Positions 59,750 to 63,911 of a DNA stretch of 64,000 nucleotides are shown here, one piece after another. Numbering within the stretch: the first letter of the stretch is position 1; each line of letters begins with the position of its first letter. The notes below the pieces were generated by a model. It made no database searches. It was not told where the DNA came from and saw only the letters and a program-made list of their open reading frames with translations. A program made the position numbers and the translations under genes. The DNA comes from Onthophagus taurus (taxonomy: Eukaryota > Arthropoda > Insecta > Coleoptera > Scarabaeidae). Location of the stretch: NCBI RefSeq assembly GCF_036711975.1, contig NC_091971.1:7501-71500 (forward strand), in the 5' to 3' direction.

Positions 59750-60679
59750 ATGAATTGGGAAGAAATTAAAATTAAAGTCCCTTGGGGATTCGTAGCAGGT
59801 TTGTTAGTTATTTAATTAAAAGAAATATTTTCAGTATTCATTTTTTCAGCAAAATCATGGGGTGATTCAAACAATTTCCCCATAATCTTAATTCATGGCT
59901 TAAACGACAACGCTGGATCATTTGATACATTAATCCCTCTCCTCCCGCAACGTTTCAATTATATTTGTATTGATTTACCAGGTCATGGGCTTTCCTCTCA
60001 TTTTCCAAGAACCCTCCCCATAGAATACACCCATTTATTGATGACTTTGCAAATAATCTTAGACGAATTGAAACAAGATAAATATATTTTAATCGGACAT
60101 GGAATTTCTGCAACTTTATTACCTCTGTATGCTCAATTAAAACCAGAAAAAGTTGTAAAAATAGTTTTAATCGATTCAACTTATACTTTTGTTAATCCAC
60201 CAGGTACATATTTAACGAGAATTGAAGAAGCAAACGCTTTATTAATGAAATATATTAATTTTAAACCTGAAAATCGAAAGTCTTATACTTATAAAGAAGC
60301 GGTGAAAAAGGTTATAAGAAGAAGACCTTTGGGGGTTTTAAATTATAAATGTGGTGAGCAATTGGTGAGGAGGATGGTGGAAAAAGTTGGCGAAAAGAAG
60401 TATATGTTTACCACCGATGGGAGATATAAAGCTTTGGTTCAACCATCGTTAAGTTTTAATTATGTGACTGAATTATTGGAAAAGAAACCGTTAAAATGTG
60501 ATATTTTAGTATTGTACACATCGTATACTTTAGATATAAGCACCAAAATTTTTAAATACATGATTCCTTATTTGGATTTATTCAAGGAACATCGAATTAT
60601 TATCGACGGGGATCATCATATACATCATACGCAACCAGAAAAAGTTTCTAATCATATCGAGAAGTTTTTATTAAATTAA
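59750..60679 (+). CDS. Serine hydrolase-like protein, catalytic residues apparently lost (292 aa)
   Basis: Alpha/beta-hydrolase of the SERHL/kraken type. Exons 59750-59798 and 59850-60679. The fold is whole: PWGFVAAKSW, the oxyanion-side block LIHGLNDNAGSFDTLIPLLP, DLPGHGLSSHF, cap domain and C-terminal GDHHIHH. At the nucleophile elbow the sequence is LIGHGIS where the neighbouring copy has FMGHSLG, so Ser is Gly. The acid-bearing strand reads VLYTSYT against VLAMKDT, so Asp is Tyr. The reading frame is open over the full family length, so it is a catalytically dead paralogue rather than a pseudogene, if the alignment is right. It lies head to tail with the intact copy 0.45 kb downstream and shares its single intron position. 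AATAAA at 60708-60713. Confidence 0.9.
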
Positions 60680-61127
60680 TTATATAATTAATTTATATGT
60701 AAATGTAAATAAAAACTTCTGTAACTAATTATTTATTTGAATTACTTTTGACATAAAATAAATCACCTGAAGTTAGATTCACTTCATAACACAAAAAAAC
60801 GTTAAGTAAAAACAATTAAAAACATTTATAAATATAAATAAAAAGAATTTAGTTACATTACCCAATTTCATTTATACTCTTTAATAGTACTTTGTTAATT
60901 AATTGTAATTAAAATTATTAAAAAATCCATTTAACGTATTCCTAACATAAAACATAACCTTAAAAAATCAAGATAGGTTAATTGACCTTTGATATTTTAA
61001 ACTAAAATATTAACGATTTTGTGGAGATAACACTATAATTACGAATATAATGACATAGCAAGTTTTAATTTTATTATATAAATCCAGATTTCCTCACAAG
61101 TGTACAAAAGAATTGTGAATAACTCAA
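60680..61127. other. Spacer between the tandem hydrolases
   Basis: AT-rich. Holds the first gene's poly(A) signal and the second gene's promoter. No other feature. Confidence 0.5.
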
Positions 61128-62078
61128 ATGAACACCAAGGAAATTAAAATTCCTGTCCCCTGGGGACACATAGCAGGTAAAAAAAATTATTTTTCATTTA
61201 AATAATTTGAATTAAATAATAACAAACACAAATTTTTAGCTAAAACATGGGGAAAAGAAGAAAATCAAACTGTAATATGTGTTCATGGTACTTTAGATAA
61301 CGCTGGTTCTTTTGATACTTTAATTCCGCATTTACCTCAAAGTTTTTACTATGTGTGTATCGATTTACCCGGACATGGTCTTTCATCGCATTACGAAAAA
61401 TATTTACCAGTAACTTTTCATAATTTATTGCTTCCTTTGAGGATCGTTTGCGAATATTTAGCAAGGGATACTTATATATTTATGGGACATAGTTTAGGAG
61501 CAAGATTATTAGTAACACACTGCCAATTATTTCAACAGCAAACATCAAAATTAATTTTAATAGATTCTACGTACACTCTTCCAAAACCTCCCGTTATTTA
61601 TTTGATGTCGTTAGAAGACACTTATAATAATCTAATGAAAAGTTTAGACTTTAAACCGGAAGATAAACCTTCAATGACTTATGCTGAAGCTGTAACAAAA
61701 GTTAAAGAAAGCAGATTTAGTGGTACCTTAACATACGAGACAGCAGAACACATTACGAGGAGAATGGTTGAAAAAAATGGTGATAAATATCAATTTACTT
61801 ATGATCCTCGATTAAAAACTATTCTCGAACCACCTGTTGATATGAAATATATCGAAGAATTATTAAAACTGTGTCCATTACAGTGTCCCGTAATTGTACT
61901 TGCTATGAAGGACACTGTGGAAGCTTTCGAGAAATATGAATTTTCTCATAATTATATGAATGTTATTCCTGACTCGGAAGTTCATGTTATTGACGGTCAT
62001 CATCATTATCATCATACAAATCCAGAAAGTGTGGCTATGTTTATATCTAAGTTTTTATTAGATCAATCAAAATTGTAA
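61128..62078 (+). CDS. Serine hydrolase, SERHL/kraken type, catalytic residues present (295 aa)
   Basis: Cytosolic or peroxisomal alpha/beta-hydrolase of unknown physiological substrate. Exons 61128-61176 and 61240-62078, the intron splitting Ala 17 at the same place as in the upstream copy. Motifs: VPWGHIAAKTWG at the start, VHGTLDNAGSFDTLIPHLPQ, DLPGHGLSSHY, nucleophile elbow FMGHSLGAR (Ser present), likely acid in VLAMKDT and the His-rich end DGHHHYHHTNPESV holding the catalytic His. The length is normal for the family. AATAAA at 62088-62093. Confidence 0.93.
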
Positions 62079-62332: not shown

Positions 62333-62644
62333 ATGAAGAAGCAATCAAGAAAAAACCGAGTTTTTAAGCCGACCATCCTTGAAGCAGCGTCAAAAAACGA
62401 TATCAACACGAGAGTCATCATTAATAATTCCTATCAAAAACATACAGAAGGGGAATTTCATCTTAAAGATAAAAGTTACAAATGGGACGATTTTAACGCG
62501 AGGATTTCGAATTACATCAACGGATTATTACGGATTGGTAAAAATGGTAGAGAATCTTTTTATAACACTAATTTTTATCCTGTACCATTTTGGTATCAAG
62601 AAATGCTCGATGTCTTGTCTATTCACCTAACAGTGAATAATTAA
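62333..62644 (+). CDS. Small ORF of 103 codons, unrecognised
   Basis: Starts MKKQSRKNRVFKPTILEAAS and ends with DVLSIHLTVNN. Basic N-terminus, Trp/Tyr/Phe-containing C-terminal half (YKWDDFNARI, NFYPVPFWYQEML), no signal peptide or membrane segment. It stands alone between the hydrolase 3'UTR and OSTM1, with a possible AATAAA-like element upstream (62287) and none convincing downstream. The aromatic, low-repeat composition is more gene-like than most random AT-rich frames here, but I recognise no family. Confidence 0.4.
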   Translation: MKKQSRKNRVFKPTILEAASKNDINTRVIINNSYQKHTEGEFHLKDKSYKWDDFNARISNYINGLLRIGKNGRESFYNTNFYPVPFWYQEMLDVLSIHLTVNN

Positions 62645-62869: not shown

Positions 62870-63911
62870 ATGTGGTTTTTAGTTAATTTTTTACTCTTTC
62901 CATTACTATTTTTACATACGTATGTACATTCGTTTCTTAAGGAGTAATTAAACTTAAATTTGCATATTTTATTTAGATTTTCTCTAGGAGTTGAAATGAA
63001 TGATACTTATAATTGTACGATATTAAGAGAAAACTTTGGGATATCCGTTTCTCAATTTACATTATGTGCAATTTCAAATTCCCATCCTATAAAATTGTGT
63101 GAATCTTGTATTGATCAGTACATAAACGTTGGAGAAAGTTACACAAATTTATCGAAGGTACAAGATTTTTTTGTCTAATGTTTAATATTAATAATTTATT
63201 GTAGTTTAAAGATGATAAAGATTTTTGTATATCACATTATATCAACTTGGATCGATTAGGCATTGTATCAAATATGTACGAGAATGTTTACAATCTTTGG
63301 AATAATGCAAAATGTTACGGTAAGGCTATAACAAGACGAAAATTAGAGATTAATTAAACATTATAAATTTCAGAATGTTACGAAGTAATAAACAGTGTTC
63401 TAACCCACAATTTATCTCAAGAAACTATAGAATTTTTAAAACTTTATAACAGGACTCAAAAATGTATTGGAAAATATCCAAAAACGATGTGTGATTTTTG
63501 TATGGACCCTTATTTGAAATTAAATAATTATTATTATAGTATAAGTAATGAAAACGATAAAATCGGGATGTGTATGGATATAGTAGATTTGGTGAGCAAT
63601 TTATAATAAAAAATGATATTTCCTTACAATTGAAACGTTTAAGATGAATACAACACGAACAGAATGGAGTGAAAAATGTTGTAAATACAGAAAACATTCA
63701 GAATACGCATTTATTGGTTCTTCCGTTGGAATTATGATCGTTACAATTTTATTTTACGTCCTAACTAAAGTTTTTATTGATAAAAAATCAACAAAAATTG
63801 TTACACGTAAGTTTTTCTACTTGAAAGACATGTTTGTAAGTTTTTATTTTAATTTTAGAACATCGTTTTGTTGAATCCTTATCGTCATCGAACAGAAGAG
63901 ACAATAATTAA
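62870..63911 (+). CDS. OSTM1: Osteopetrosis-associated transmembrane protein 1 (OSTM1), 6 exons
   Basis: Beta subunit of the lysosomal ClC-7 chloride/proton exchanger: a heavily glycosylated luminal domain with one membrane segment. Exons 62870-62919, 62977-63157, 63205-63319, 63374-63591, 63644-63806 and 63859-63911; phases agree. The start gives a signal peptide MWFLVNFLLFPLLFLHT. The luminal part has the paired-Cys framework of the family (LCESCIDQY, ECYEVINS, MCDFCMDPY, GMCMDIVDLMNTTRTEWS). The last matches the DVEDAMNITRKLWS region of human OSTM1. Then one membrane segment IGSSVGIMIVTILFYVLTKV and a short tail. It is shorter than human OSTM1 (334 aa), at about 260 residues, mainly at the N-terminus and tail. 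Several Asn-x-Thr/Ser sites fit glycosylation. Confidence 0.93.

Follow-up and report, generated by a model that had tools for sequence, protein, structure and literature searches.

A tandem pair of hydrolase genes

The window analysed in this study is a stretch of 64,000 nucleotides (C6:7501-71500) from a genome of 290.8 Mb in 33 contigs. Near its right end, two hydrolase genes lie in tandem on the plus strand, each of which is complete and consists of two exons (Table 1). The upstream gene (copy 1) encodes a protein of 292 amino acids and the downstream gene (copy 2) a protein of 295 amino acids, the identity between them being 47.8%. Both genes have the same orientation, and 448 bp separate the stop codon of copy 1 from the start codon of copy 2. 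These structures, with GT-AG introns in both genes, agree with the first-pass annotation, which had placed a tandem pair of full-length hydrolases here. In random sequence with the composition of the window, a stop-free frame as long as that of copy 1 (276 codons) would occur at a given place with a probability of 2.5e-10. The PF00561 profile (Abhydrolase_1, cut-off 25.8 bits) matched copy 1 with 60 bits and copy 2 with 49.9 bits, and this profile and the fold matches in the PDB assign the pair to the alpha/beta-hydrolase fold. Among the NCBIfam families listed, none was matched at its cut-off.

Table 1 Features of the two hydrolase genes (positions are those of the window)
Feature	Position	Strand	Remark
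Copy 1 exon 1 (MNWEEIKIKVPWGFVA)	59750..59798	+	phase-1 donor; GT-AG junction checked
Copy 1 intron, 51 bp	59799..59849	+	GT-AG
Copy 1 exon 2, alpha/beta-hydrolase domain	59850..60679	+	protein C-terminus FLLN, without SKL
Copy 1 codon 101, GGA (Gly)	60101..60103	+	nucleophile Ser replaced
Copy 1 codon 103, TCT (Ser)	60107..60109	+	elbow Gly replaced
Copy 1 Asp125 past strand beta6	60173..60175	+	conserved family acid, kept
Copy 1 Tyr past beta7	60524..60526	+	variable family column
Copy 1 conserved catalytic-type His (G-x-H)	60614..60616	+	kept
Copy 2 exon 1 (MNTKEIKIPVPWGHIA)	61128..61176	+	
Copy 2 intron, 63 bp	61177..61239	+	GT-AG
Copy 2 exon 2	61240..62078	+	holds Ser101, Asp125 and His271
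Copy 2 nucleophile Ser101, codon AGT	61491..61493	+	
Copy 2 Asp past beta7	61911..61913	+	column aligned with copy 1 Tyr
Copy 2 C-terminal Ser-Lys-Leu	62067..62075	+	PTS1-type; missing in copy 1

Other features were seen around the pair. An open frame of 103 amino acids starting from ATG (window 62333-62644) gave no Pfam match at E<=1, and the hand-spliced protein of a gene at window 62996-63911 matched OSTM1 (PF09777, E 2e-49). The start of the contig ahead of the window (C6:1-7500) consists entirely of N. Telomere-type patterns gave no match for TCAGG repeats and two overlapping matches for TTAGG repeats.

Searches of the genome found at least 12 places with copy 2 as the query and at least 14 with copy 1. 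The hydrolase family has at least 12 genomic members, and the analysis was confined to 12 paralogs, namely the pair, a gene at C6:23.3M, five genes at C6:12.959-12.974M, one on C7, one on C5 and two on C2. Two further places (on C11 and C3), the weakest of all and seen with the copy 1 query only, were excluded, and 19 Abhydrolase_1 places were listed in the genome as a whole. The five genes at C6:12.959-12.974M (L047-L049) form a tandem array of related hydrolases on the minus strand, with a single exon-1-like sequence nearby in a motif scan. The two C2 genes (L030 and L031, at C2:13.99M and 13.95M) are without the intron between exons 1 and 2 and have one intron further downstream instead. 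Against the genome_contigs collection the C5 paralog matched 40 stretches, and against the viral_contigs collection copy 1 matched one stretch, with no relatives among them in either case.

The position of the intron shared by the pair had been read as a sign of a recent common origin, and this reading did not hold. The C5, C7 and C6:23.3M genes share this phase-1 intron junction, and the one exon-1-like sequence beside the C6:12.9M cluster had the same donor. Since the intron is thus family-wide, it cannot date the pair. Synonymous change between copy 1 and copy 2 was saturated according to the branch lengths of the codon model, and in the paralog alignment the C6:23.3M gene was nearly as near to copy 1 (44%) as copy 2 was (47%). 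In the tree, copy 1 and copy 2 came out as sisters with weak support (72/54). Five alternative groupings were tested and none was rejected (AU p 0.21-0.43). These results indicate that the pair is old and that the two genes are not clearly sisters.

Nucleophile, acid and histidine

The nucleophile elbow reads GHGIS in copy 1 and GHSLG in copy 2, exactly as the first-pass annotation had reported, so that Gly101 stands in place of Ser101 and Ser103 in place of Gly. The G-H-S-x-G nucleophile motif of PA1622-like serine hydrolases is therefore present in copy 2 and absent from copy 1. Ten of the 12 paralogs carry Ser at this position, and Gly was found in copy 1 and the paralog L025 alone. In an alignment of 25 rows, consisting of both window proteins and 23 bacterial homologues, from Pseudomonas and its relatives (drawn from the best 80 of 452 loci), the nucleophile Ser was present in 24 rows, the sole exception being copy 1. 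We also counted the columns that were invariant in eight of the ten Ser-bearing paralogs, the C2 pair, extracted as exon 2 without its first part, being omitted. Copy 1 retained 24 of these 26 columns, and the two lost were those of the elbow (S101 and G103), while L025 retained 23 (D58E, S101G and H274I). When each of the eight Ser-bearing rows was compared with the other seven, between 0 and 5 columns were lost, never that of the nucleophile. Copy 1 thus lacks a catalytic residue and is otherwise an intact homologue, as is expected of a pseudoenzyme.

L025 (C6:12965741-12966562, minus strand) lies 12.9 Mb from the pair and has an intact frame, the elbow GHGLG with the codon GGA, and an SKL end; its Ser was replaced by Gly, yet SKL was kept. 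Its conserved His274, which is distinct from the catalytic-type His271, is replaced by Ile. At the nucleophile position, all seven Ser-bearing genes of the C6/C7 group use the codon AGT, and the two genes with Gly use GGA. Since GGA is two changes away from AGT, the loss of Ser in copy 1 is unlikely to be recent. By parsimony on the best tree, Ser was lost twice, separately in copy 1 and in L025. A tree with these two as sisters was not rejected (AU p 0.268), so that Ser may have been lost either once or twice, and nucleophile-less members have perhaps arisen repeatedly in the family. The sequence of copy 1 comes from one assembly only, which would allow the changed nucleophile to be an assembly or sequencing error. 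Such an error is extremely unlikely, as codons 101 and 103 together differ from the codons of the other paralogs by four or more base changes and L025 carries the same Ser to Gly replacement.

The annotation had also stated that copy 1 lost its catalytic acid, Tyr standing past beta7 where copy 2 has Asp. These residues are indeed there, but the role given to the Asp was not sustained: the column is unconserved. Across the 12 paralogs it holds Y, D, E, N, N, G, E, Q, K, P, K and D, and 21 of the 25 rows that include the bacterial homologues have Q or G there. On the other hand, an Asp past beta6, 24 residues beyond the nucleophile, is conserved in all 12 paralogs and all 25 rows, and copy 1 has it as well. 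Asp125 immediately follows the beta6 strand in the structure predicted for copy 1. A study of the alpha/beta-hydrolase fold describes an alternative acid site at the C-terminus of beta6 and contacts of the residue ending beta6 with all three triad residues (PMC7034887). An acid loss in copy 1 was rejected on the basis of this conservation, and of the two catalytic residues said to be missing, the nucleophile is gone while the acid is kept as the beta6 Asp. The acid of this family is to be read past beta6, as reading it past beta7 would make most members seem dead. The catalytic-type His (G-x-H) was likewise present in 12/12 paralogs and 25/25 rows, copy 1 included, and the oxyanion-type HG is kept in copy 1, its column resting on 10 of the 12 rows. 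Judging the triad by conservation and position, copy 1 would lack the nucleophile only.

What is left of the site bears on the main rival explanation, namely that copy 1 gained another chemistry, in which the His-Asp pair and the oxyanion hole would activate water or perform a reaction other than hydrolysis, or Ser103 would serve as a displaced nucleophile. His and the beta6 Asp have been kept in both Gly-nucleophile paralogs despite saturated divergence, and copy 1 does have a Ser two residues on from the lost one, which would fit such an activity. However, the elbow motif would place Ser103 off the apex, L025 has Gly there, and His and Asp may instead serve the fold or ligand binding, given that the residue ending beta6 is described as contacting the triad (PMC7034887). 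We therefore regard a new chemistry as unlikely.

Selection on copy 1

A dN/dS test on copy 1 had been suggested as a check on its retention, and it was run within the single genome using a self-written, GY94-like branch codon model with F3x4. The codon set comprised nine of the 12 paralogs, the C5 gene and the two C2 genes being excluded as too distant. With these nine genes, omega was estimated at 0.107 for the copy 1 branch and at 0.1245 for the background, and omega=1 on copy 1 was rejected (2ΔlnL 22.5), as it also was under two further topologies (2ΔlnL 21.4 and 24.1). In a set of four genes omega=1 was again rejected for copy 1 (2ΔlnL 7.8), and none of 24 neutral simulations of this set reached 7.8, the maximum being 4.31. 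Here, omega was 0.177 on copy 1 as against 0.087, a difference that was not significant (2ΔlnL 1.92) but leaves some relaxation in copy 1 possible; this small set is noisy, with omega at its upper bound in 7 of the 24 simulations. The lowest omega in the codon model was that of copy 2 (0.043). For L025, omega=1 was rejected with 2ΔlnL of 24.3 to 25.2 (nine genes) and 17.4 (four genes). Since synonymous sites are saturated, all these omega values are rough, and that of copy 1 is an average over a long saturated branch which includes the time before the loss of Ser. Across these sets and topologies, neutral evolution of copy 1 was rejected with 2ΔlnL of 7.8 to 24.1, as would be expected, within one genome, of a pseudoenzyme retained under selection.

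Tajima relative-rate tests between copy 1 and copy 2 were balanced with all five outgroups (chi2 <= 0.96). With one of three outgroups, L025 had evolved somewhat faster than the C6:23.3M gene (42 vs 26 changes, chi2 3.76).

The length of a final neutral phase on the copy 1 branch could also be bounded. A neutral tail of 0.05 substitutions per codon lost 0.3 lnL units, and the lack of stop codons in the tail cost a further 1.21 units; under a combined limit of 1.92 units, the tail is at most about 0.06 substitutions per codon, with indels uncounted. For tails of 0.05 to 0.07, the probability of a change from AGT to GGA is 1.3e-5 to 2.6e-5, and that of a change from AGT to any Gly codon is 3.8e-3 to 5.3e-3. 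Because the permitted tail is short and GGA is improbable within it, Ser was most likely lost before any neutral phase. Seen from the sequences of this one genome, copy 1 was most likely kept after the loss of its nucleophile.

These observations bear on whether copy 1 is newly dead and decaying neutrally. The nucleophile and the C-terminal signal are both gone, and omega in the four-gene set is higher, though not significantly, which is what decay would produce. Nevertheless, copy 1 has no stop or frameshift, its splice sites are intact, its rates are balanced and omega=1 was rejected; moreover, GGA requires an extra silent step after AGT to GGT, which is improbable within the permitted tail. 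Neutral decay is thus highly unlikely. The proposal of the first-pass annotation that copy 1 was retained and is not decaying is upheld by the full-length frame and by the constraint seen in the codon model, the relative rates and the bound on the neutral tail.

Predicted location, relatives and proposed role

The tripeptide SKL, the canonical peroxisomal signal PTS1, ends copy 2, the C6:23.3M gene and L025, while copy 1 ends in LLN. Of the other C-termini, two in the cluster are SKY, one is HKL and one is NKL, and the C7, C5 and C2 genes are without such an end. Stop-codon readthrough as a source of SKL in copy 1 was rejected, the codons after the stop not encoding it, and no signal peptide was visible by eye in copy 1. 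As predicted from these few C-terminal letters, copy 1 is probably cytosolic. The SKL kept by L025 indicates that loss of the nucleophile and loss of the tag are not coupled in general.

Following the first-pass annotation, the family is compared with SERHL/SERHL2 of vertebrates and kraken of Drosophila, orthology being putative. The likeness consists in their being alpha/beta-hydrolases annotated as serine hydrolase-like, and in the PTS1 predicted for Serhl and the SKL of copy 2, while copy 1 differs from SERHL and kraken in lacking both the nucleophile and SKL. For Serhl, the predicted PTS1 is reported to be stronger in the zebrafish protein than in the human one (PMC8919083). Drosophila kraken, listed as the SERHL homologue, is reported as not localised to peroxisomes (PMC7477296). 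A PTS1, which the FLLN end of copy 1 does not provide, is therefore not a firmly defining feature of this type, kraken being unlocalised to peroxisomes. Dead SERHL paralogs were not mentioned in the literature listings of one library on SERHL in Coleoptera and on insect pseudoenzymes.

The predicted model of copy 1 had middling confidence (pLDDT 75, pTM 0.78), the lid being low in parts. The best solved matches to it in Foldseek were PA1622 and the CurM thioesterase, with a TM of about 0.6 and an rmsd close to 10. PA1622 of Pseudomonas aeruginosa (7al5, 7al6) came first among solved structures for the family profile, for the copy 2 sequence and for the copy 1 fold; it shares with the family the Ser, an Asp 24 residues on and G-x-H-H. 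It differs in being bacterial and in keeping the Ser where copy 1 has Gly; it was deposited as a hypothetical protein, and its homologues are 20-28% identical to copies 1 and 2. The CurM thioesterase (PDB 3qit) was the second-best profile match and the next-best entry by fold, and a Glu in it, which is presumably the catalytic acid of CurM, aligns with the beta6 Asp of the family. Unlike copy 1, CurM is a domain of a polyketide synthase and its Ser is intact.

Identity between copy 1 and copy 2 was 53% in the first core part, 46% in the lid and 38% in the last core part. These values bear on another suggestion, in which copy 1 pairs as a subunit with an active paralog, enters peroxisomes by piggyback and tunes that enzyme. 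The tandem position, the common orientation with 448 bp from stop to start and the likeness in the first core part and the lid would suit a partner of copy 2, but the low identity of the last core part does not, and we consider this arrangement quite unlikely.

Taken together, we propose that copy 1 is a retained pseudo-hydrolase with a binding or regulatory role, probably in the cytosol, and we give this reading a probability of roughly 0.6. A role of this kind had been put forward in the first-pass annotation and is plausible. Gly101 would close the acyl-enzyme route, so that copy 1 would not turn over esters as copy 2 should. The pocket with HG, His and Asp, and the lid, would remain; copy 1 would still fold and might bind an acyl-type ligand or a partner with the retained pocket and lid. 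Lacking PTS1 and a visible signal peptide, it would stay in the cytosol, with copy 2 going to peroxisomes. Copy 1 might then act as a sensor, carrier or co-regulator, much like the nucleophile-less ABHD5. In a more specific form, an expanded, peroxisome-tagged family would yield nucleophile-less members that keep His-Asp, and copy 1, having lost its tag too, would be a cytosolic sensor of the metabolite that copy 2 hydrolyses. This version is rather improbable; if true, it would describe a two-compartment pair of enzyme and receptor derived from a tandem duplication.

As working analogies for the pseudo-hydrolase, we would place ABHD5 first and neuroligin-type proteins second. ABHD5 (CGI-58) is described as lacking the Ser nucleophile and hydrolase activity and as activating a lipase by means of residues R299, G328 and D334, and it is a paralog of the active ABHD4 (PMC5314347). 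ABHD5 and copy 1 are both alpha/beta-hydrolases without a Ser nucleophile, but their subfamilies differ. Neuroligins, glutactin, gliotactin and neurotactin are reported as non-catalytic proteins that have the same fold but no functional triad (PMC5943944). These are cholinesterase-like adhesion ectodomains, unlike copy 1, in which no carboxylesterase model was found at E<=0.001 (Pfam). As ABHD5 and the neuroligins illustrate, proteins of this fold take on new roles once the Ser is lost. A pseudo-hydrolase of this kind is thus a known evolutionary path and not a new kind of system. Here, Ser-bearing and Ser-less paralogs occur together in one genome, and the predicted compartment of copy 1 has changed as well. 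Also of interest are the presence of another paralog without the Ser and the lack of a peroxisomal tag in copy 1. Since L025 lost the nucleophile only and copy 1 also lost the tag, the loss of catalysis and the loss of targeting can be tested separately.

Retained duplicates of this kind are described in other insect families. Subclade 002 of the Bombyx carboxylesterases is reported to have been kept although it lacks the catalytic Ser, and it may bind substrate (PMC3017765), and pectinase pseudoenzymes of beetles are described as kept duplicates lacking catalytic residues (PMC6549527); both belong to enzyme families other than that of copy 1. Copy 1 also narrowly matched the Ndr profile (NDR/NDRG family), with 24.4 bits against a cut-off of 23.3, and copy 2 was absent from the Ndr matches (Pfam). 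The Abhydrolase_1 (60 bits) and Abhydrolase_6 (48.3 bits) profiles fitted copy 1 better, the former far better, and copy 1 groups with its own paralogs.
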